This document shows positions 20,350 to 51,699 of a DNA stretch of 64,000 nucleotides, piece by piece (position 1 is the stretch's first letter; each line of letters starts with the position of its first letter). A program made the position numbers and the translations under genes. Origin of the DNA: Flavobacterium commune (GTDB taxonomy: Bacteria; Bacteroidota; Bacteroidia; Flavobacteriales; Flavobacteriaceae); the NCBI RefSeq assembly GCF_001857965.1, contig NZ_CP017774.1:1984001-2048000 (forward strand). The letters run 5' to 3'. The notes under the pieces were generated by a model, which saw nothing but the letters and a program-made list of their open reading frames with translations, had not been told where the DNA came from and made no database searches.

Positions 20350-20422
20350 AAAAAGTCAGAAGTCCCGATAGCTATCGGGAGAAGTCAGAAGTTTGAGTTT
20401 ACTTGAATTTCTGACTTTTTTG
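20350..20422 (+). terminator. Terminator-like structure with nested palindrome
   Basis: An outer pair (AAAAAGTCAGAA with TTCTGACTTTTTT) encloses a perfect 16-base palindrome CCCGATAGCTATCGGG (20364-20379) and a second AGTCAGAAG. It looks as if a TCCCGA/TCGGGA palindromic element was inserted into the terminator arm together with a duplication of its flank. Confidence 0.65.
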
Positions 20423-28000: not shown

Positions 28001-28078
28001 TCTCGTATTTTTTTTAATAAAAAATACTTTAGGAATGGCTACAAAGTGCCCAAAAAATGGGACCACGGAAGTCATCTT

Positions 28079-28157
28079 ACTTTTCCCTACGCTAGTATGA
28101 ACTAGATCAGGTTCAGAGGGTAAAATCTCAGCCTGCTAATGCAGACACCCCTAAAGT
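28079..28157 (-). ncRNA. TPP riboswitch controlling the thi operon
   Basis: On the minus strand: TTTAGGGGTGTCTGC, GCAGGCTGAGATTTTACCC, CTGAACCTGATCTAG, then CATACTAGCGTAGGGAAAA. These are the CTGAGA and ACCTGA boxes of a TPP aptamer. It lies directly upstream of thiS. A TACATTTG -7 element (complement of 28164-28171) places the transcription start at the aptamer's 5' end. Confidence 0.95.
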
Positions 28158-28249
28158 GTGTGACAAATGTAATTAAAAAGTTAGAAAAGAGAAGTTAGAA
28201 AAGAGAAGTTTAACAATTTTACATTGAATACATCAAAACTGAACACTGC

Positions 28250-31452: not shown

Positions 31453-31537
31453 TTTTGTACTAGTTTACGTTCTGTTGAGTAAGCAATGTATAAATGGCGA
31501 AATTTCGGCTAAATACATTTAGATGCTAAACTAATTT

Positions 31538-31590
31538 CCCGACGCATCGGGACAACAACAACATTGTTTAAATTCAATAATAAATTCAAT
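31538..31590. repeat. CCCGA/TCGGG palindrome in the rpsI-rpsB spacer
   Basis: CCCGACGCATCGGG at 31538-31551 belongs to the same family as the palindromes at 20364, 35360, 44962 and 50741. Near the rpsI end GTCTTG (31593-31598) can pair with CAAGAC (31609-31614) but no T-run follows on the minus strand. The spacer may be a leader for rpsB. Confidence 0.5.
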
Positions 31591-35185: not shown

Positions 35186-38044
35186 TTAATGCGCTTCCAG
35201 CCAGTTTTTCCCCATTCCTAAATCGACAACTAGAGGAACTTCTAATTTAAAAGCATTTTCCATTTCGGCTTTAATCATCGGTTGGATTTTTTCTAATTCT
35301 GAGTTGTGTACATCAAACACAAGTTCATCATGTACTTGCAATAACATTTTCGATTTCCATCCCGAACCATCGGGATTCGGCGAAGTCAACTTGTTATGAA
35401 TGTTAATCATTGCAATTTTGATAATATCAGCCGCTGAACCTTGAATAGGTGCATTTACTGCATTACGTTCGGCACCACCGCGAACAATAGCATTTTGCGA
35501 ATTGATGTCTTTTAAATACCTGCGACGTCCTAAAACCGTTTGCACATAACCATGATCTCGGGCAAAATCAATTTGATCGCCGATATACGATTTCAACCTT
35601 GGATACGATTTGTAATAAGCTTCAATCAGTTCGGCGCTTTCAGAACGGGAAAGATTCGTCTGATTCGAAAGTCCAAAAGCCGAAACCCCATAAATAATCC
35701 CGAAGTTAACCGTTTTAGCATGACTACGTTGTTCGCGTGTCACTTCTTCTAAAGGCACATTGAAAACCTTAGAAGCAGTCGATTTATGAATGTCTTCATT
35801 GTTTTGGAAAGCCTTAATCATGTTTTCTTCGCCACTCAAAGCAGCAATTACACGCAATTCTATTTGAGAATAATCCGCAGAAACCAAGGTGTAATTTTCA
35901 TCACGAGCAATAAATGCTTTACGAATCAATCGCCCTCTTTCAGTACGAATAGGAATGTTTTGTAAGTTCGGATTATTAGAACTCAAACGTCCTGTTGCTG
36001 CTACGGTTTGCATATAATCGGTATGCACGCGTCCTGTTTTTGTGTCAACCTGGTTTGGTAAAGCGTCAATATAAGTACTTTGTAATTTCACCATTTGGCG
36101 CCATTCGAGAATGTCACGTACAATTTCGTTGTCATTGGCTAGATAAGATAAAACCTCTTCGCCAGTAGCATATTGTCCTGTTTTGGTTTTCTTTTGTTTG
36201 GCACCGCCAATTTTTAATTTGTCAAATAAAATATCGCCGAGTTGTTTTGGCGAAGCCAGATTGAATTTCTCACCGGCAGTTTCATATATTTTTTGTTCCA
36301 GGGCATTGCTTTCGGCAGCCATTTCCACTGACATGCTTTTCAAAAACGGAACATCAAGTTTGATTCCTTCGGTTTCCATAGCTGCAAGAACAGGAATTAA
36401 CGGAATTTCGATTTCGTCAAATAGTTTTTGAGTGGCTGTTTTTTCCAGTTCTACGGCAAATAATTCTTTCAATTGAAAGGTAACATCGGCATCTTCGGCA
36501 GCATATTCTTTGATATCTTCCAAAGCTACTTCGCGCATCGATTTCTGATTCTTCCCTTTTTTACCAATTAAATCTTCAATGGATTTTGGCGAATATTTCA
36601 AATAAGTCTCCGATAAAATATCCATATTATGACGCATATCAGGATTAATCAAATAATGCGCAATCATGGTGTCGAATAATTTTCCGGCTACGCGAATGCT
36701 ATAATTGGCCAGTATTTTTAAATCGTATTTGATGTTTTGACCAATTTTTTCAATTTCCGCATTTTCGAAAAACGGAATGAATTTTTCTGCCAGAGCTTTG
36801 GCTTCGTCCTGATTTTCGGGAAAGGGAACGTAAAATCCTTTTCCTTTTTCGTAAGAAAATGAGATTCCAACCAGTTCTGCATGCAAAGCATCCAATCCTG
36901 TTGTTTCGGTATCAAAGCAAACGGAAGTCTGTTTTTGTAAATTTTGCAATAACAATTTAATTCCTAAATCGCCTTGAATGATTTGGTAAGAATGCGGCGT
37001 GTTTTCCAGGGTATTGTAAAACTGATGATGAGTTACTTCAGTATCTTGCGCCGGAGTGGTGGCCGAAAACAAATCAAACTGGTCTTCGTTTTTAGGCTGT
37101 GGTTTTTTATATAGTTTAGCGTCAGGTTCCGTGCTTTGAGGGCTGCTTTCTCCAGTAGCTTTTGGTTTGAAAATGGCATCAAATTGTTCGGCCATTCTTC
37201 TAAATTCGAGTTCGTTGAATAAAGCATCCGTTTTTTCTACATCAGGAGTCGAAAGTTCATAGTCTTTTTCACAAAAAGTTACTGGACAATCCAGCAGAAT
37301 AGTCGCTAGTTTTTTAGACAACAATCCCAGTTCGGCATTGGCTTCAATTTTATCTTTGATGGCTCCTTTGAGTTGGTGGGTGTTAGCCAATAAATTTTCG
37401 ATAGAGCCATATTCAGCAAGGAATTTTTTAGCTGTTTTTTCTCCCACACCCGGTAATCCAGGGATATTATCGGCCGAGTCGCCCATCATTCCTAAGTAGT
37501 CAATAACCTGCTCGGGTCTTTCGATTTCAAATTTTTCCAATACTTCAGGGATTCCCCAAATTTCGATTCCGTTACCCATACGGGCGGGTTTGTACATAAA
37601 AATGTTTTCCGAAACCAATTGGGCAAAATCCTTATCAGGTGTAACCATAAAGACTTTGTAGTTTTCTTTTTCAGCTTGTTTGGCAATTGTCCCAATTAAA
37701 TCGTCGGCTTCATAACCCGGCACTTCAATAATCGGAATGTGCATAGCGTTCAATAAGGCTTGGATATAAGGAACGGCAATCTTGATGGCTTCGGGTGTCG
37801 CATCACGATTGGCTTTGTATTCTGGAAACCATTCGTTGCGCAAATCGCTGCCGCCTTTGTCAAAAGCTACCGCCAGATGATCCGGCTTTTCGCGCTTAAT
37901 CACATCCATCAGTGAATTCATAAATCCCATAATGGCCGATGTATCCATGCCCTTAGAGTTGATTCTTGGATTTTTAATAAAGGCATAATAACCTCTAAAA
38001 ATTAAAGCATAGGCATCGAGTAGAAAAAGACGTTTTTGTGACAT
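35186..38044 (-). CDS. polA: DNA polymerase I
   Basis: A 952-residue replication and repair enzyme. Residues ~1-290 are the 5'-3' exonuclease (VAFDKGGSDLRNEW, PDKDFAQLV, LGMMGDSADNIPGLPGVGEKTA). The 3'-5' exonuclease looks active: CFDTETTGLDAL has the DxE pair and EYAAEDADVT the last acidic site. The polymerase motifs A (VSADYSQIELRV), B (RSHAKTVNFGIIYGVSAFGL) and C (QVHDELVFDV) are complete. Between the helix ending NKLTS and KSKMLLQVHDE there are about nine extra residues (PNPDGSGW) encoded by a TCCCGA/TCGGGA palindrome at 35359-35376. Confidence 0.97.
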   Translation of the reverse strand: MSQKRLFLLDAYALIFRGYYAFIKNPRINSKGMDTSAIMGFMNSLMDVIKREKPDHLAVAFDKGGSDLRNEWFPEYKANRDATPEAIKIAVPYIQALLNAMHIPIIEVPGYEADDLIGTIAKQAEKENYKVFMVTPDKDFAQLVSENIFMYKPARMGNGIEIWGIPEVLEKFEIERPEQVIDYLGMMGDSADNIPGLPGVGEKTAKKFLAEYGSIENLLANTHQLKGAIKDKIEANAELGLLSKKLATILLDCPVTFCEKDYELSTPDVEKTDALFNELEFRRMAEQFDAIFKPKATGESSPQSTEPDAKLYKKPQPKNEDQFDLFSATTPAQDTEVTHHQFYNTLENTPHSYQIIQGDLGIKLLLQNLQKQTSVCFDTETTGLDALHAELVGISFSYEKGKGFYVPFPENQDEAKALAEKFIPFFENAEIEKIGQNIKYDLKILANYSIRVAGKLFDTMIAHYLINPDMRHNMDILSETYLKYSPKSIEDLIGKKGKNQKSMREVALEDIKEYAAEDADVTFQLKELFAVELEKTATQKLFDEIEIPLIPVLAAMETEGIKLDVPFLKSMSVEMAAESNALEQKIYETAGEKFNLASPKQLGDILFDKLKIGGAKQKKTKTGQYATGEEVLSYLANDNEIVRDILEWRQMVKLQSTYIDALPNQVDTKTGRVHTDYMQTVAATGRLSSNNPNLQNIPIRTERGRLIRKAFIARDENYTLVSADYSQIELRVIAALSGEENMIKAFQNNEDIHKSTASKVFNVPLEEVTREQRSHAKTVNFGIIYGVSAFGLSNQTNLSRSESAELIEAYYKSYPRLKSYIGDQIDFARDHGYVQTVLGRRRYLKDINSQNAIVRGGAERNAVNAPIQGSAADIIKIAMINIHNKLTSPNPDGSGWKSKMLLQVHDELVFDVHNSELEKIQPMIKAEMENAFKLEVPLVVDLGMGKNWLEAH
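35359..35376. repeat. Palindromic element in frame within polA
   Basis: ATCCCGAACCATCGGGAT, a perfect 7-bp inverted repeat around ACCA. Its outline matches palindromes outside genes at 20364, 31538, 44962 and 50741. It encodes part of a short loop insert just before polymerase motif C. Confidence 0.75.
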
Positions 38045-38592: not shown

Positions 38593-39040
38593 TTTGTTTT
38601 TTAACTACAAATATACATTAATCAATGTGTTTTCTTTACAGTTTTCGGTAATTAATTATGAACAAGTATTTTGAAAAACTGCTGTATACTACTTGAAAAA
38701 AAAACTCAAAATTGTTGGATGGAAATTTACTGTCATGTCGTTTCTCAAATATATGCTAATTAATTTTTTTTATGTTTTTAGATTTTTTATATTTTTTTTT
38801 AAAAATATTCTTACAAATTTTATTGTGAAATTGAATCATTCTTTTTAGCCCTGATCGCAGCGGCATCCTCTTGTCTCGTTTTTTGGGACGAGACAAGAGA
38901 TAAAGCGGAGAGCAGGAGGAGACGTTATTAAATGTTTTATGGTTCTGCTCCAAAAAAAATAATAGTATCAAGTTAAAATTTAATTAAGTTGTTCTTAATT
39001 AAGCGGTAGATGTTGTTATTTTGTGTAAAAATGTATTACA
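38593..39040. other. Spacer remainder with a Flavobacteria-type dispersed repeat
   Basis: The only structured part is 38844-38925: AGCCCTGATCGCAGCGGCATCCT, then CTCTTGTCTCG pairing with CGAGACAAGAG, then AAAGCGGAGAGCAGGAGG. Elements of this outline (AGCCC-GAT-AGCGGCATCC, inner stem, AGCGGA-AGCAGGA) are common between genes in flavobacteria, from memory. The rest is very AT-rich and shows no gene. Confidence 0.6.
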
Positions 39041-44300: not shown

Positions 44301-44666
44301 TGCAATGTCATTACTTTTGTTGGCTTCTTCATCCTTATTTACAATTTTTCTCAAAATCATGGTAGAAGACCAAAACATAAAAAGAATAGTAAAAGCACTG
44401 GAGAAAACAGAAGTCATGTTGACCATTAACGCAACATGTTGTGCACTGGCAGCAAACATTGCAAAAAAGGCGCCAATCATTTGGAATAAAGGAGCTCCCG
44501 GTGGGTGACCTACCTCTAGTTTTGCTGCTGTGGCTATATACTCCCCACAGTCCCAAAAGCTCATTGTAGGTTCAACAGTAAGAGAATAGGTTATTAATGC
44601 GATTCCAAAAGCAATCCATCCTATGATAGTATTCCATTTTTTGAAATTGAAAGACTCCTTGTTCAT
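41388..44666 (-). CDS. DUF2723 multi-pass membrane protein (glycosyltransferase-like)
   Basis: A 1092-residue protein. The N-terminal ~330 residues hold about nine helices and the family signature ([29 protein letters not shown]), resembling protein O-mannosyltransferases, with acidic residues in the first loop. Further helices lie at ~580-690. A large soluble domain follows ([34 protein letters not shown]), and the C-terminus is helical with TPR-like character. In Bacteroidota DUF2723 proteins are associated with cell-envelope glycosylation; the exact reaction is not established. It has a single gene and a bidirectional terminator. Confidence 0.85.
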   Translation of the reverse strand: [1092 protein letters not shown]

Positions 44667-44833
44667 GTAGTAAAATTTAGTTAATTTTTTCGAGTTACAA
44701 AGAAAATGTTTTTTTACTTAAGGTTATAGGCATTAACAAAATTTTCTACAAAACAATTAGGTTTTTTAAGGTGTTGATTTTGAGGTAGATTTTGATTTTG
44801 TGAATTTTTTTTCGAAAAAATATCAAAAAAAAT

Positions 44834-44863
44834 TTGCGTAAACTGAAAAACGTTGTAAATTTG
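44834..44863 (+). promoter_or_regulatory. Promoter of tRNA-Gln
   Basis: TTG at 44834-44836, a 19-base spacer and TAAATTTG at 44856-44863; the tRNA begins 20 bases after the element. Confidence 0.8.
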
Positions 44864-44883
44864 CACTCGCAATAAAGCACTGC

Positions 44884-44954
44884 TGGTCTATGGTGTAATG
44901 GTAACACAACTGTTTTTGGTGCAGTCTTTCTAGGTTCGAGTCCTAGTAGACCAA
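44884..44954 (+). tRNA. tRNA-Gln (anticodon TTG)
   Basis: A 71-base cloverleaf. The acceptor stem TGGTCTA pairs with TAGACCA. The anticodon stem ACTGT/GCAGT holds the loop TTTTGGT with anticodon TTG, reading CAA. The T arm is CTAGG-TTCGAGT-CCTAG. The discriminator is A and CCA is not encoded (ACA follows), so CCA is added after transcription. Confidence 0.95.
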
Positions 44955-44958
44955 CATA

Positions 44959-44988
44959 AAAGTCCCGATTTTATCGGGACTTTTTTTA
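44959..44988 (+). terminator. Terminator of tRNA-Gln
   Basis: AAGTCCCGAT pairs with ATCGGGACTT around TTT and is followed by T6. The stem is again of the TCCCGA/TCGGGA type seen in dispersed palindromes here. Confidence 0.92.
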
Positions 44989-45005
44989 TGCAATAAACTT
45001 TCGTT

Positions 45006-45830
45006 TTATATTTTTAATACTAAGAGTGGTTTGGAGGCGTGATTGGCTAAATCTTCACTGATGCTTCCGGTGAAAAAATGAGAAAGACCAGTTCTTCCGT
45101 GTGTGCAGAGGCTGATTAAATCGGCATTTATGTCTTTGGCAAAATGGATAATGCCTTTTTCTATGTTTACGTCATTGTAGATATTGAATGAGTAATTTTT
45201 TATTTCAAATTCGCTGATGAACTTTTTTGCAATTTTGTTGGCAATGGCTGTTGTTTTAAAGCTGTTTGGAGTACATACAGTTACCAGATTTAGTTTAGCG
45301 TCAAAAGAATTAGCGAAATCCAGGATTTTTTGAAACGGTTTTCTTATCTCTTCTGAAAAATCGGAAGCAAAAACAATGTTTTCAGGGTTGAAGTTGTTGA
45401 TTTCTTCCTTAATAACAATTACAGGTGCTGGGGATAATCGGACTACTTTTTCGGTATTTGAGCCTAATATGAGTTCTTCGATTCCTGATACGCCATTGGA
45501 ACCCATTACAACTAAGTCAATTTCTTCTTTATTGATGAAGGAAAGGATTCCGTGAGAGGCTTTTTCCAGCTGAATAAAATCAATTACGGTGAGTTCTTTA
45601 AGGTAGTTTTTTTCTTTAATGAACTGCATTTTTTCTTTTGCTTTTTGTAAAAACAGCATGATTTCCGGTATTGCAGCTCCGCCGGTTATAGCGTCATTCA
45701 TTTGACTTGGAATTTCAAGCATGTGTAAAAGATGAATTTCGCAATTGTTCTTTCGGGCTATTTGAGCGGCTACTTTTAGAGCGTTTTCGGCTCGTGTTGA
45801 GAAATCGGTAGGGACAAGAATTCGTTTCAT
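45006..45830 (-). CDS. Universal stress protein, two Usp domains
   Basis: A 274-residue protein with tandem Usp domains (~1-145 and ~150-274). Both carry the ATP-binding pattern G-x2-G-x9-G(S/T): VMGSNGVSGIEELILGSNTEKVVRL in the first and CTHGRTGLSHFFTGSISEDL in the second. The starts KRILVPTDFSTRAENAL and IVFASDFSEEIRKPF are also family-like. Usp proteins are soluble and respond to starvation or redox stress. Single gene, convergent with tRNA-Gln. Confidence 0.92.
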   Translation of the reverse strand: MKRILVPTDFSTRAENALKVAAQIARKNNCEIHLLHMLEIPSQMNDAITGGAAIPEIMLFLQKAKEKMQFIKEKNYLKELTVIDFIQLEKASHGILSFINKEEIDLVVMGSNGVSGIEELILGSNTEKVVRLSPAPVIVIKEEINNFNPENIVFASDFSEEIRKPFQKILDFANSFDAKLNLVTVCTPNSFKTTAIANKIAKKFISEFEIKNYSFNIYNDVNIEKGIIHFAKDINADLISLCTHGRTGLSHFFTGSISEDLANHASKPLLVLKI

Positions 45831-45914
45831 GGTTTTGTTCTTTGGAGGAGGTTAGGATTTGGTTTTTAAAGTAATAATAAAGGTAAGGAATAATTTTACA
45901 GCAATCAATTATTT

Positions 45915-45943
45915 TTGGTTTATAAAAATAAACACTATATTTG
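45915..45943 (+). promoter_or_regulatory. Promoter of rimP-nusA-infB
   Basis: TTG at 45915-45917, an 18-base spacer and TATATTTG at 45936-45943. The predicted start is ~45948, giving a leader of ~60 bases that contains a strong terminator-like hairpin. Confidence 0.8.
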
Positions 45944-45971
45944 TGCCGTTATTTATTAAAATCTAGATAAT

Positions 45972-45998
45972 GAGGGGACTAAATGTCCCCTCTTTTTA
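45972..45998 (+). terminator. Promoter-proximal terminator in the rimP-nusA-infB leader
   Basis: GAGGGGAC (45972-45979) pairs perfectly with GTCCCCTC (45985-45992) around TAAAT, followed by TTTTTAT. This is a textbook intrinsic terminator ~25 bases into the transcript and ~9 bases before the rimP ATG. No gene upstream on this strand needs it (the neighbour is on the other strand), so it likely regulates the operon. Confidence 0.8.
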
Positions 45999-46006
45999 TA
46001 AAAAAT

Positions 46007-46471
46007 ATGACATTTAAAGAGAAAGTAAATACGTTGTTAGTGGAGGCTCTTGAAGATAGACCTACGCTTTTTTTGATTGATTTAACTATTACTGAAGCAT
46101 TTAAAGTTATGATAACCTTAGATGATGATAATGGTGTAATTTTGCAGGACTGTATTGATGTAAGTCGGGCAATAGAGAGTAAGCTGGATAGAGAAGAACA
46201 GGATTATTCTTTAGAAGTAGCTTCAGTAGGTGTGGGATCTCCGTTAAAAATGGTTCGTCAGTATGTGAAGAATATTGGCAGAACCCTGATTGTGACTACA
46301 AATACTGAAAAAATTGAAGCTGAATTAGTTGATGCTAATGAAGATTTCATAATTTTGTCTTGGAAAGCAAGAGAGCCTAAAAAAGTAGGAAAAGGAAAAG
46401 AAACAGTACAGAAAGAACAACAAATACCTTATACAGAAATTAAAGAGGCAGTTGTTACAGTAACATTTTAA
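46007..46471 (+). CDS. rimP: Ribosome maturation factor RimP
   Basis: A 154-residue protein needed for 30S subunit maturation. Family segments are [60 protein letters not shown]. The start at 46007 ([11 protein letters not shown]) is chosen over 45983 because the upstream codons lie in the terminator hairpin. First gene of rimP-nusA-infB; it is 13 bases from nusA. Confidence 0.95.
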
Positions 46472-46484
46472 TTAAAGAATTCGC

Positions 46485-47738
46485 ATGGAAAATTTAGCAT
46501 TAATCGATTCATTTTCAGAGTTTAAAGATGATAAACTTATTGATCGTGTAACGCTTATGGCAATTTTAGAAGATGTATTTAGAAATGCATTGAAGAAAAA
46601 ATACGGTTCAGATGATAATTTCGATATCATTATCAATCCTGATAAAGGAGATATGGAAATTTGGAGAAGAAGAGTAATTGTTGCTGATGAAGATTTAGAT
46701 TTCGAAAATGAAGAGATTACTTTAACCGAGGCTAGAAAAATCGAAGCTGATTTTGAAATTGGAGAAGAAGTTTCTGAAGAGGTAAAATTGATTGATTTAG
46801 GAAGAAGAGCTATTTTGGCTTTGCGTCAAAATTTGATTTCTAAAATTCATGAACACGATAATACAAATCTTTATAAGCAATTTAAAGATTTAATAGGTGA
46901 TATATACACCGCCGAAGTACACCATGTAAGACCAAGAGTTGTTATTCTTGTTGATGATGAAGGAAATGAAATTGTTTTGCCAAAAGAAAAACAAATTCCA
47001 TCAGATTTTTTCCGTAAAGGAGATAACGTTCGCGGAATTATTGAAAGCGTTGAATTAAAAGGAAATAAACCTCAAATTATTATGTCCAGAACTTCTGAGA
47101 AGTTCTTGGAAAAATTATTTGAACAGGAAATTCCGGAAGTTTTTGACGGTTTAATCATGATCAAAAAAGTAGTGAGAATTCCGGGTGAAAAAGCAAAAGT
47201 AGCGGTGGATTCTTATGATGACAGAATTGACCCGGTAGGGGCTTGTGTGGGGATGAAAGGTTCTCGTATTCACGGAATTGTACGTGAGTTAGGTAATGAA
47301 AACATTGATGTTATTAATTATACTAATAATATTCAACTGTTTATTACAAGAGCATTGAGTCCTGCAAAGGTTTCTTCGATTAAAATCAATGAAGAAGCTA
47401 AAAGAGCTGAGGTATTCCTGAAATTAGAAGAGGTTTCAAAAGCAATTGGTAGAGGAGGACACAACATTAAATTAGCCGGTTTATTAACGGGTTATGAGTT
47501 GGATGTTATCAGAGAAGGAGATGTTGAAGGAACTACAGCAGATGAAGATGATGTTGAATTAACAGAGTTTTCAGATGAAATAGACGAGTGGATTATCGAA
47601 GAATTTGCAAAAATTGGATTAGATACTGCTAAAAGTATATTGAAACATGATGTAGAAGATTTAGTAAGAAGAACAGATTTAGAGGAGGAAACAATTCTGG
47701 ATGTAATGAAAATATTGAAAGAAGAGTTCGATAGTTAG
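46485..47738 (+). CDS. nusA: Transcription termination/antitermination factor NusA
   Basis: A 417-residue RNA-polymerase-binding factor that modulates pausing and termination. N-terminal domain (LIDSFSEFKDDKLIDRVTLMAILEDVFRNALKKKYG), S1 domain (GDIYTAEVHHVRPRVVIL), and two KH domains (VGACVGMKGSRIHGIVRELGNENIDVI and KAIGRGGHNIKLAGLLTGYELDVI) in order. It ends with a short acidic and helical tail without the duplicated acidic repeats of E. coli NusA. NusA could control its own operon through the leader terminator. Confidence 0.97.
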   Translation: MENLALIDSFSEFKDDKLIDRVTLMAILEDVFRNALKKKYGSDDNFDIIINPDKGDMEIWRRRVIVADEDLDFENEEITLTEARKIEADFEIGEEVSEEVKLIDLGRRAILALRQNLISKIHEHDNTNLYKQFKDLIGDIYTAEVHHVRPRVVILVDDEGNEIVLPKEKQIPSDFFRKGDNVRGIIESVELKGNKPQIIMSRTSEKFLEKLFEQEIPEVFDGLIMIKKVVRIPGEKAKVAVDSYDDRIDPVGACVGMKGSRIHGIVRELGNENIDVINYTNNIQLFITRALSPAKVSSIKINEEAKRAEVFLKLEEVSKAIGRGGHNIKLAGLLTGYELDVIREGDVEGTTADEDDVELTEFSDEIDEWIIEEFAKIGLDTAKSILKHDVEDLVRRTDLEEETILDVMKILKEEFDS

Positions 47739-47788
47739 TTCTATACTTCTAAACAACACAACGAAATAGGTAATAATAAAAAGGTTAT

Positions 47789-50713
47789 ATGTCTGAAGAG
47801 AGAGTAATAAGAATAAACAAAGTTTTAAGGGAATTGAATATTTCTTTAGAAAGAGCTGTGGATTATCTTAAAGATAAAGGGATTGCGATAGAGTCCAATC
47901 CAAACACAAAAATTTCTAATGAAGTGTACGATGTCTTGTGCGGTCAGTTTGCGGGTGACAGAGGGAAAAAAGAGGCTTCTAAAGAAGTAAGCGAAGAGAA
48001 AAGGAAAGAAAAAGAAGCTTTACGTATTGAGCGTGATAGAGAGGCGGAAGATAAGCGTAAGCAAGAGGAAGAATTACAAAGACAGCAACAGGAAGTAATT
48101 AAGGCAAGAGCTGTAATTTCAGGTCCTGTTCAAGTTGGGAAAATTGATTTGAATCCTGCAAAACCTGCTGCTGCTCCTGTAGAGGAGAAAGTAGTAGCTC
48201 CTAAACCTGAAGTTGTAGAAGACAAACCGGCTCCTAAAACTAGTGCTCCAGAGAAAATAGAATCAGACAAAAAAGTAGAAAAACCTATCGTTGCCGAAGC
48301 TAGTAAGACTGTTGTTGAAAATGTAGCACCTAAGGAAGAACCTAAAAAAGAGGAGAAGCAAGTTGTTGCAGCGCCTCAGCCTAAAGAAGTAGCTAAGGTT
48401 GAAAAAGAGGTTGTAAAAACCGATGAAGCACCGGTTGAGGAGGCAATTGCTACGCAATATCAAAAACTTTCAGGAGCTAAATTAACTGGTCAGACTATTG
48501 ATTTATCGCAATTCAATAAGCCTAAAAAGAAAAAAGAAGATCCTAAAATTACAGCAAATAAGCCGGGTACTCCTGGTGCTCCCGGAGCTAATGCAAATAA
48601 AAATAAGCGTAAGAGAATTGCGCCTAAACCAGGAACTCCTGCGGCTCCAAATACATCAAATGCTCCCAGAACTCCCGGGACTCCAAATCCAAATAAAATA
48701 ACACCTAATACTGGTGGTGGATTTAATGCTAACAGAGGAGACAGAGGTGCCAGACCTGGATTTGTAAAAGGAAATCGTCCTGCTATTGTGGCTAAAGTTG
48801 AGCCAACAGAAGAGGAAGTTAAAAATCAAATTAGAGAGACTTTAGAGAAACTTCAGGGTAAAAAAGGAGGGAAATCTAAGGCTGCTAAATACAGAAGAGA
48901 TAAAAGAGATACTCACCGTCAGAAATCAGATGATGAACAAAGAGCTTTAGACGAAGAAAGTAAAATTCTTAAAGTAACCGAGTTTGTAACTGTAGGTGAA
49001 ATTGCTATCATGATGGATGTGCCAATTACTAAGGTTATTGGAACTTGTATGTCTCTTGGAATCATGGTTACCATGAACCAGCGTTTGGATGCAGAAACAT
49101 TAACTATTGTTGCTGACGAATTTGGTTATGATGTTGAGTTTATTACTGTAGATATCGAAGAAGCTATCGAGGTAGTTGAAGATAAAGAAGAAGACTTAGT
49201 AAACAGAGCGCCTATTGTTACGGTAATGGGACACGTTGACCACGGTAAAACCTCTTTACTGGATTATATTCGTAAAGAAAATGTTATCGCTGGTGAGTCT
49301 GGAGGAATTACACAACACATCGGTGCTTACGGGGTGAAATTAGAGAATGGTCAAAAAATTGCATTCTTAGATACACCGGGTCACGAGGCGTTTACCGCGA
49401 TGCGTGCACGTGGAGCGCAACTTACCGATATTGTTATTATCGTAATTGCTGCCGATGATGATATCATGCCGCAAACCAAAGAGGCTATCTCTCACGCTCA
49501 GGCGGCTGGGGTGCCAATTATATTTGCAATCAATAAAATAGATAAGCCAAACGCGAATCCGGATAAGATTAAGGAAAGGTTAGCAGGTATGAACTTGCTT
49601 ATCGAAGAATGGGGAGGAAAAATCCAATCTCATGATATTTCTGCTAAGACAGGTCTTGGAGTAAAAGATCTTTTGGAGAAAGTATTGTTAGAGGCTGAAA
49701 TTTTAGATTTAAAATCAAATCCTAATAAGTCAGCTCAGGGTGCTGTTGTTGAAGCTTACTTAGATAAAGGAAAAGGATATGTTTCTACTATTATGGTGCA
49801 ACACGGAACTTTAAAAATTGGAGATTACCTGTTAGCAGGTAAACACCATGGTAAGGTCAAAGCAATGCACGATGAGCGTGGTAACATTGTTACTGTTGCA
49901 GGTCCGTCAACACCGGTATCTATTTTAGGTTTAGATGGAGCTCCTACAGCCGGAGATAAATTCAATGTTTTTGAAGACGAGAAAGAAGCAAAACAAATTG
50001 CTGCTAAACGTTCTCAATTAATGCGTGAGCAATCAGTACGTACACAACGTCATATTACTCTTGACGAAATTGGTCGTCGTATTGCGTTAGGTCAATTTAA
50101 AGAATTGAACGTAATCCTTAAAGGAGACGTGGATGGTTCTGTTGAGGCATTATCTGATTCGTTCTCTAAATTGTCAACTGAAGAAATTCAAATTAATATC
50201 ATTCATAAAGGAGTTGGAGCAATTACTGAAACTGACGTTATGTTGGCTTCTGCATCAGATGCAATCATTATCGGATTTAACGTTCGTCCTGCCGGAAATG
50301 CAAGACAGCTTGCTGATAAAGAAGAAATTGATATCCGTTACTACTCAATCATCTACGCGGCTATTGACGACTTGAAAGATGCAATGGAAGGAATGCTTGC
50401 TCCGGAAATGAAAGAGGAAGTGTTAGGTACTGCAGAGATTAGAGAAATTTTCAAAATTTCTAAAGTAGGTTCTATTGCTGGATGTATGGTTACTGATGGT
50501 AAAATTACCCGTCAGGCAAAAATCAGAGTTATCAGAGCCGGAGTGGTAGTTCACGAAGGAGAATTGGTGGCCTTGAAACGTTTCAAAGACGATGTTAAAG
50601 AAGTTACCAAAGGTTACGATTGTGGTATCCAAATTAAAGGATTTAATGATATTGAAGAATACGATGTTATTGAAGCTTTCCACGAAGTAGCAATCAAGAA
50701 AAAATTGAAATAA
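47789..50713 (+). CDS. infB: Translation initiation factor IF-2
   Basis: A 974-residue GTPase that places initiator tRNA on the 30S subunit. The first ~400 residues are a long, charged, Ala/Pro/Lys/Glu-rich N-domain with an IF2N motif at the start (RINKVLRELNISLERAVDYLKDKG). The G domain follows: G1 GHVDHGKTS, G3 DTPGHEAF, G4 NKIDKP. The C-terminal beta-barrel and fMet-tRNA-binding domains end YDVIEAFHEVAIKKKLK. It is third in rimP-nusA-infB, separated from nusA by 50 bases. Confidence 0.97.
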   Translation: MSEERVIRINKVLRELNISLERAVDYLKDKGIAIESNPNTKISNEVYDVLCGQFAGDRGKKEASKEVSEEKRKEKEALRIERDREAEDKRKQEEELQRQQQEVIKARAVISGPVQVGKIDLNPAKPAAAPVEEKVVAPKPEVVEDKPAPKTSAPEKIESDKKVEKPIVAEASKTVVENVAPKEEPKKEEKQVVAAPQPKEVAKVEKEVVKTDEAPVEEAIATQYQKLSGAKLTGQTIDLSQFNKPKKKKEDPKITANKPGTPGAPGANANKNKRKRIAPKPGTPAAPNTSNAPRTPGTPNPNKITPNTGGGFNANRGDRGARPGFVKGNRPAIVAKVEPTEEEVKNQIRETLEKLQGKKGGKSKAAKYRRDKRDTHRQKSDDEQRALDEESKILKVTEFVTVGEIAIMMDVPITKVIGTCMSLGIMVTMNQRLDAETLTIVADEFGYDVEFITVDIEEAIEVVEDKEEDLVNRAPIVTVMGHVDHGKTSLLDYIRKENVIAGESGGITQHIGAYGVKLENGQKIAFLDTPGHEAFTAMRARGAQLTDIVIIVIAADDDIMPQTKEAISHAQAAGVPIIFAINKIDKPNANPDKIKERLAGMNLLIEEWGGKIQSHDISAKTGLGVKDLLEKVLLEAEILDLKSNPNKSAQGAVVEAYLDKGKGYVSTIMVQHGTLKIGDYLLAGKHHGKVKAMHDERGNIVTVAGPSTPVSILGLDGAPTAGDKFNVFEDEKEAKQIAAKRSQLMREQSVRTQRHITLDEIGRRIALGQFKELNVILKGDVDGSVEALSDSFSKLSTEEIQINIIHKGVGAITETDVMLASASDAIIIGFNVRPAGNARQLADKEEIDIRYYSIIYAAIDDLKDAMEGMLAPEMKEEVLGTAEIREIFKISKVGSIAGCMVTDGKITRQAKIRVIRAGVVVHEGELVALKRFKDDVKEVTKGYDCGIQIKGFNDIEEYDVIEAFHEVAIKKKLK

Positions 50714-50736
50714 TATTTCAAATATAAATTTATAAG

Positions 50737-50764
50737 AAAATCCCGATTCGTCGGGATTTTTTGT
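50737..50764 (+). terminator. Terminator after infB
   Basis: AAAATCCCGA pairs with TCGGGATTTT around TTCG, followed by TTTT; stem of the same TCCCGA/TCGGGA family. It ends the rimP-nusA-infB transcript. Confidence 0.92.
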
Positions 50765-50772
50765 ATTTTTAG

Positions 50773-51699
50773 GGTTTTGGGAATGGTATTGGTATTGTTG
50801 TTAGTTATAATTATAAGTATAACGGAAAAGAACTCCAAGACGAGCTGGGGCTTAATATGACAGCAATGGACTTCCGTCAATATGATATGGCAATTGGTCG
50901 TTTTAATTCGATAGACGCTTTGTCTGAAATGAGTTTTTCAACCTCTCCTTTTGCTTTCGCCAGAAATAATCCAATTTTTTGGATGGATCCAAGCGGATTG
51001 CTTTCACAAGAATTTATAAATTCTCTCTGGAACAATAGTAACAATAGTAGCGGTAAAACAGTTTGGACCAATACAGGTGGTAGCTTTTACTCTGATAATA
51101 TCGGTAACGGTAAAGCAGGAAGTGTAGATAATACTACAAATGAATTCACAGGTCATGATGCTTTAAGTGAAGTTACAATTACAAAAAATAATCGCGGTGA
51201 CGCATCTTATTTAGGACAGCTACAATCTCACGTTTATAGTACAGGTAAATTTTATAGTAGCTGGAGAAGTCAACAAAGAGCAAAGAAATGGAGTGATTTA
51301 GGTCAAGGATTACAAGATATAGGAGATGGTATAGCTGTTGCCGGATACGCCTTGACAGCCACAGGAATTTTTGCAGAAGTTGGCGTGCCTCTTGCAGGTA
51401 TTGGAAATACTATTTCTCTTAGTGGAACTGCTATATCAACAACAGTAGCTACAGTACAGGCATTTAACGGAAATGATCTTTCTAAAAATGGATTTAAAAT
51501 TGCAAAAGCTGCTGCTGTTTACGGAGCTGGAAAGGTTGCGGAACATTATCTAAATAAAGTGCCAGGATTAGAACCCACTTTAAAGAATGTTGATGGAGAA
51601 GAAGTAATGAATTTAGGTAATAAAATTTTACAACAAAATGTAAGTCTTAAAATTATGGGAATAGATAGGTATATCGATGCAAAAACAGAAAAGGAATAA
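50773..51699 (+). pseudogene. RHS-repeat protein, orphan C-terminal end with variable tip
   Basis: The frame opens only after a TAG at 50770-50772 and begins, without a clear start, with YNYKYNGKELQDELGLN, then YDMAIGRFNSIDALSEMSFSTSPFAFARNNPIFWMDPSGL: the RHS-associated core end. The large upstream RHS repeats are absent, so this is a remnant or displaced toxin tip. ATG at 50857 would give 280 residues. After the core, the tip has hydrophobic Gly/Ala-rich segments (GIAVAGYALTATGIFAEVG) and an unrecognised end. The next gene encodes a small two-helix membrane protein, as an immunity gene would. Confidence 0.7.

Follow-up and report, generated by a model that had tools for sequence, protein, structure and literature searches.

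A short palindrome of Flavobacterium, probably a dispersed mobile hairpin, lies in frame within DNA polymerase I and other genes

Results

A 16-bp palindrome within polA

The window, by which we mean the whole stretch of 64,000 nucleotides analysed here, corresponds to positions 1984001-2048000 of a single-contig genome of 3.85 Mb (G000); judged by PolA, its close relatives belong to Flavobacterium. Its polA gene contains a 16-bp palindrome (Table 1); on the minus strand, positions 35360-35374 read CCC GAT GGT TCG GGA, which encodes PDGSG, seven residues ahead of the sequence QVHDE that we take to be motif C of PolA. The original prediction had described an extra loop of eight residues just before motif C, and had listed four places between genes at which the same TCCCGA-N-TCGGGA outline recurs. 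The loop is present, with a length of five residues (15 bp, PDGSG) rather than eight, and the outline is found at all five named places.

Table 1. Positions of the features of the window that are discussed in the text
Feature	Position	Strand	Basis
Intergenic copy TCCCGATAGCTATCGGGA	20363..20380	.	Outline match
TPP riboswitch	28067..28162	-	Rfam RF00059
Intergenic copy TCCCGACGCATCGGGA	31537..31552	.	Outline match
polA, DNA polymerase I, 952 aa	35186..38044	-	ORF; PDB DNA polymerase I chains match; homologues so named
16-bp palindrome TCCCGAACCATCGGGA inside polA	35360..35375	.	Sequence, shuffles, PolA comparison
Flavo-1 RNA	38843..38923	+	Rfam RF01705, 67 bits
tRNA-Gln	44884..44955		
Hairpin TCCCGATTTTATCGGGA, then CTTTTTTT	44963..44979	+	Terminator-like by eye
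Hairpin TCCCGATTCGTCGGGA between AAAA and TTTTTT	50741..50756	+	Listed as terminator-like by consensus scan

Between QGSAAD and QVHDE, 75/80 PolA rows have a loop of 24 residues and the other five have one of 29 (the rows are 79 of 80 homologous loci plus the window; L089 was left out, as it could not be parsed). The 29-residue loops are those of the window, L036 and L061, with an intact palindrome, and of L029 and L079, with a changed one; the PolA proteins of L016, L017 and L018, at 91-92% identity, have no insert. Among the 120 closest database PolA sequences, six have the long loop, namely the window's own (P0002), P0003-P0005 (93-96% identity) and P0067 and P0075 (85%); the 114 with the short loop include P0006-P0009, at 93-94% identity. 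The insert is thus common to the closest PolA sequences and missing from the next closest. An equal-length loop was not found in distant PolA: the Myroides protein (L091) lacks the insert, and the solved Pol I sequences 8oo6 (presumably E. coli Klenow) and 6vde have a five-residue gap at this point in the two alignments printed. A search pattern for the filled site matched 9/398 genus genomes, our own counted; such a pattern would overlook inserts that have diverged further. The 16-mer is intact in 7/10 bearers of the PolA loop insert and changed in the other three; these 10 bearers among 86 PolA sequences do not give a frequency, because five of the genomes were fetched for bearing the insert.

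In a predicted PolA model, of low confidence (mean pLDDT 46.5) and consulted only on how helix, coil and strand follow one another locally, the insert falls in coil between a helix (871-887) and a strand (899-904), such that the polA copy is predicted to insert five codons between the helix and the strand that leads to motif C. A second polA site lies in the linker joining the N-terminal part to the Klenow part. Here, L083 and L092, which occupy separate parts of the PolA tree, carry the 18-mer TCCCGA-N6-TCGGGA, which encodes LPKAFGT or LPTAFGT. In L085 the site holds a 16-mer that encodes HPDASGQ. Linker inserts of the 18-mer type (the LPKAFGT/LPTAFGT kind) occur in 3/120 database PolA sequences.

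The palindrome is dispersed across Flavobacterium genomes

Many genome-wide copies had been predicted, and a search of G000 for TCCCGAN{2,14}TCGGGA gave 71 forward matches, compared with 3 for the reversed control. When up to one mismatch is allowed, the window contains TCCCGANNNNTCGGGA 3 times, whereas 100 dinucleotide shuffles gave a mean of 0.05. All of 150 sampled genus genomes contain the outline, in 1 to 267 copies, with counts in some of them not above the reversed control (G018, 1 vs 6; G145, 13 vs 17). The maximum belongs to G120, which has 267 outline copies, 181 of them the 16-mer, in 6.5 Mb. For the 16-mer alone, five chosen genomes gave 181, 85, 84, 68 and 12 copies, with a control of 0-1. 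Across the order, 67/119 genomes have at least one copy, many at control level, and some genomes outside the family reach 66 or 81 copies.

From 60 listed of the 71 places in G000 we obtained 55 distinct contexts, 52 of which lie outside recognised genes (with ORFs of at least 150 aa as the criterion); 19/55 are 16-mers. Among the G000 contexts examined, the commonest loop is TAGCTA (14/52), which is the loop of TCCCGATAGCTATCGGGA. TAGCTA also leads in G006, and AGCC leads in G015, whose stretches were chosen around 16-mers; that loop subfamilies differ between the examined stretches suggests spread from source copies. The TAGCTA 18-mer was also seen in 37 stretches of viral contigs, in a few cases within ORFs as PDSYR; the IMG/VR contigs L256, L257, L258, L261 and L280 carry it, and some of the ORFs read PDSYRD or PDSYRE.

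Empty sites have three to six bases in place of the palindrome

We aligned 77 palindromes in stretches of three related genomes, G015, G006 and G008, with their counterparts, anchoring the two 40-base flanks separately. A clear empty counterpart was found for 25; 10 were always filled, 13 were unclear (poor flanks), and 29 had no counterpart in the compared stretches. Empty sites have 3-6 bases in the palindrome's place in 25/25 cases, with a mode of 4, and in these clear cases the palindrome alone distinguishes filled from empty sites. Of the 16-mers, 12 replaced 4 bp, five replaced 5 bp and one replaced 3 bp; for 18-mers the replaced length was 3 (one site), 4 (two), 5 (two) or 6 (two). These lengths may move by about one base with the flank alignment, and 3/25 sites had alternative lengths of equal score. 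As a control, 400 random 16-base stretches of G015 gave 316 usable comparisons, of which 311 returned 16 and none returned 3-6. No target-site duplication, a criterion for MITEs, was found at the 25 clear empty sites, which have the 3-6 bp instead; adjacent direct repeats of at least 3 bp were seen in 6/52 G000 contexts.

All seven sites in large ORFs (six G015 genes and a 464-aa ORF of G008) replace 4 bases, and the other 18 replace 3-6. Since sites outside large ORFs also lose 3-6 bases, the loss is not due to selection on reading frame alone. Replaced words include AATT in purL, AAAC in a sigma-54 regulator gene and AATC in the gene of an Omp85-like protein, and, outside genes, CAGT, AGTC and AATCC. 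Post hoc, we noted recurring target words: AGTC/GACT within a GAGCG-N-AGTC-GAAG repeat at L309, L312 and L315 (and likewise at L412, but there the alignment is unclear), AATC, and GA-AAAY-TGG in the polA of G319 and the sigma-54 regulator gene.

Copies inside other genes

Three of the 55 G000 contexts lie within genes, those of PolA, a methyltransferase-like protein (named by eye, with no NCBIfam hit) and an HI0933-like flavoprotein, and all three copies are 16-mers. The latter two genes are 12 bp longer than their empty relatives. The methyltransferase-like insert is also present in G015 (intact) and in G007 and G019 (changed), and the flavoprotein insert in G005 (changed). In G015, for which only 16-mers were searched (68 places, 50 listed, 49 looked at), 10 of the 49 lie in recognisable genes. 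These encode methylmalonyl-CoA mutase (near the N-terminus), an E2 acyltransferase (in a linker), an Omp85-like protein (under the NCBIfam cut-off and with no Pfam hit), PurL, PabB, a cyclase-like protein, a sigma-54 regulator, a glycosyltransferase-9 (heptosyltransferase-like) and, twice, the methyltransferase-like protein. For six of these G015 genes, G006 or G008 offers a clear empty counterpart, with 4 bases replaced in each; the PabB copy lacks a sharp boundary. A leucyl-tRNA synthetase (leuS) copy lies at L244, in another of the five genomes with 16-mer counts. Our counts leave out L120:5466 and L288:1501, which are near the start of open frames and probably upstream of the true gene start, and L438:9651, at residue 20 of an open frame and upstream of a later ATG.

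Exchanging 16 bases for 4 gives a net gain of 12 bp, and hence four added codons in any frame. All eight 16-mers with an AGYN loop are stop-free in six frames; in the TAGCTA 18-mer, one frame on either strand is interrupted by a stop.

Other repeats were observed in the same kinds of place. Genes also contain, in frame, a longer repeat made up of CTTCGACTCCGCTCAG and then TGACA, seen at L401 and L413 (cyclase-like gene) and in the L412 region; in G015, the GACT of this longer repeat is where the 16-bp palindrome is nested. In some relatives, PurL, PabB and the methyltransferase-like protein contain other short tandem-like repeats in the same variable loops, for example ACTTTCGACTTTCGAC and CAATTCACAATTCACAATT (L333, L340, L362, L363 and the methyltransferase relatives L149-L157). 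It looks as though these PurL, PabB and methyltransferase-like loops were open to invasion by several families of repeats.

Terminator-like hairpins account for a minority of copies

The palindromes might instead be transcription terminators, or protein sites under selection, rather than mobile units. T-runs stand behind the hairpins at 44963 and 50741, and the former starts 8 bases past the end of tRNA-Gln. It is not among the sites of our terminator consensus scan, which found 3 sites over 44600-51000 compared with 3.6 in shuffles. With the T-runs behind them, these two hairpins are more plausibly intrinsic terminators than mobile copies, and the hairpin at 44963 is probably no mobile copy; thus, while all four intergenic places have the predicted outline, two are better explained in another way. 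A hairpin before a T-run occupies the same place in G015, G006 and G008 (L318:1501), and the palindromes filled in every counterpart found (10/77) also fit a terminator. Nonetheless, T-tracts lie beside just 6/52 contexts in G000 and 2/50 in G015, the stem of the polA copy is not followed by a T-run, and in-gene copies are unlikely to serve as terminators. We regard termination or protein binding as an improbable account of the family as a whole; it fits a minority of copies.

No Rfam family was found at the window palindromes at gathering scores. Elsewhere in the window, Rfam identifies a TPP riboswitch and a Flavo-1 RNA; the latter is located about 0.8 kb past the start of polA, where no ORF of at least 100 aa is listed.

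One or several origins of the PolA insert

We mapped insert bearers on a PolA tree of 85 rows, built with the loop removed and L089 left out. At least 8 changes are needed, 6 of them forced by well-supported branches, and a single clade of bearers is rejected (p-AU 1e-38, on a quick tree). Shuffled labels need 9.7 changes on average, with 24/500 shuffles needing as few as the 8 observed. The insert had been expected to be restricted to one lineage. It is missing from most flavobacterial PolA, as that expectation requires, yet among the sequences compared it is not confined to one lineage and appears patchy over the genus.

The scatter bears on whether the insert arose repeatedly or in a single ancestral in-frame insertion that some lineages kept and others lost or received by recombination, the site having been hit only once. 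We give the single origin a little under an even chance. Every loop insert is (N)PDGSG or an altered form of it, with near-identical DNA; G000 and G005 have both the polA and the flavoprotein inserts in common; and the bearer label is somewhat clustered, as the shuffles indicate. Beside the polA insert, the window and G005 are mutually closest (0.907, 0.911), but further upstream, in columns 300-600, they are not (0.797), which is the pattern expected from local exchange. Weighing against a single origin are the scattered bearers and the forced changes, the rejection of one clade, and the insert in the polA of G319, which has its own junction and a net length of +12 bp rather than +15. Moreover, among six bearers, the alignment segments beside the insert do not join bearers across clades. 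For this reason, and also because the window and G005, which are closest beside the insert, belong to one clade, we rejected the idea that the insert passed from clade to clade by local recombination of the polA C-terminus. Taken by itself, the common PDGSG peptide is more suggestive of a single origin, followed by exchange or loss, than of repeated fresh insertion. The net length of the window's insert, +15 and not +12, means that one further codon needs explaining.

A further possibility is an ordinary indel in the PolA loop: PDGSG would be a favoured turn, and codon choice would have produced the palindrome by coincidence. L029 and L079 largely keep the peptide with the palindrome lost, as this would allow. 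However, the 6-bp arms recur in three reading frames of unrelated proteins (PEASG, SRSLG, LPKAFG), and recur between genes too, at numbers exceeding the reversed and shuffled controls. We consider a coincidence of this kind very improbable.

Discussion

We think it likely that Flavobacterium carries a dispersed mobile hairpin, REP-like in kind, whose copies are TCCCGA-N4-TCGGGA (16 bp) and TCCCGA-N6-TCGGGA (18 bp). Comparison between genomes shows its dispersion, lineage-limited presence, empty sites of 3-6 bases, in-frame retention and decay, with some in-gene copies altered by point mutation. Its mobility is suggested by presence and absence between species, and we infer that the palindrome is the derived state in every case. 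A mobile palindrome inside polA, as originally predicted, is supported both by the loop's absence from most PolA sequences and by the copies elsewhere in the genome.

We propose that source copies would seed the spread through a putative trans-acting activity on single-stranded hairpin DNA, with certain short target words perhaps preferred. At the sites compared, the hairpin stands in place of a short stretch, mostly of 4-5 bases, with no target duplication; in genes, the 16-for-4 form adds exactly four codons whatever the frame. Retention in genes could simply reflect the tolerance of loops and linkers for inserts, and no benefit to PolA is assumed. More speculatively, and with somewhat less confidence than even odds would imply, these copies may represent a class of ultra-small hairpins that take about 4 bases out and put 16 in at preferred words, by an undescribed activity on single-stranded DNA; such a frame-neutral inserter would repeatedly remodel the loops of core enzymes.

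The filled and empty sites in related species argue that a mobile palindrome adds codons to core enzymes of Flavobacterium, PolA and PurL among them. The replacement of about 4 bases by 16 is a concrete signature with which the moving mechanism could be traced. Where a flavobacterial protein has a short loop peculiar to its lineage, that loop may be a scar of the palindrome and not an adaptation.

The hairpin could alternatively be a REP element in the strict sense, mobilised by a RAYT/Y1 transposase. Y1_Tnp (PF01797) is found in 108/150 genus genomes, with three in G000, and copy numbers of palindrome and transposase are weakly correlated (Spearman 0.29, p 0.0004, with genome size and kinship ignored). 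On the other hand, 7 genomes with at least 40 palindromes have no Y1 match, flanks inspected by eye show no constant tetranucleotide at the foot of the hairpin, and target bases get replaced. The palindrome is also absent from each of 30 Y1 loci examined (98.8 kb), a weak point given that about one occurrence is expected by chance. We consider Y1 mobilisation unlikely.

Several known systems resemble the Flavobacterium palindrome. Rickettsia palindromic elements, as described in the portions of the reports that we draw on, lie both between genes and, in frame, within conserved protein genes, are about 105-150 bp long and encode a longer peptide (PMC10969869, PMC2229807). The predicted kinship with these elements holds for in-frame insertion, seen here in polA, purL and the genes of the methyltransferase-like protein, flavoprotein and sigma-54 regulator. 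It does not extend to size, as the Flavobacterium palindrome is far shorter, at 16-18 bp and four or five codons, or to phylum. GTAG/CGTC REPs, defined by their tag and 20-40 bp long, have also been reported within ORFs, with targets that include DNA polymerase I and uvr and rec genes; in the sections of that work covered here, more than half of in-gene inserts are dimers or groups, and CGTC repeats occur in Bacteroidetes also (PMC3733652, 2013). The word Flavobacter is absent from the main text of that paper. Like these REPs, our palindrome is short, high in copy number and mainly intergenic (71 copies; 52/55 contexts outside recognised genes); unlike them, it has no GTAG/CGTC tetranucleotide, by eye, in the flanks listed for G000 and G015. 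Subclass 2.6 of the REP-associated tyrosine transposases is likewise from Bacteroidetes and, in the portion of the source used, has hairpins that flank the gene, with copies elsewhere in the host genome (PMC6006769); the Flavobacterium Y1 loci differ in having no palindrome (0/30, chance expectation as above). The RepRanger survey of REPs includes two Flavobacterium species in its genome table, and no in-gene insertion or target replacement was found in the excerpts available from it (PMC12306157). In open PubMed Central, the exact sequence TCCCGATAGCTATCGGGA had no match, and no report of in-gene palindromes in Flavobacterium was among the matches listed. By the tests made, the Flavobacterium palindrome is a member of neither group, being too short for a Rickettsia element and having no tag seen for a REP. 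In the way it works it resembles both Rickettsia palindromic elements and intragenic REPs, and is set apart from them by its shorter length, by the lack of a visible tag and by the replacement of target bases.
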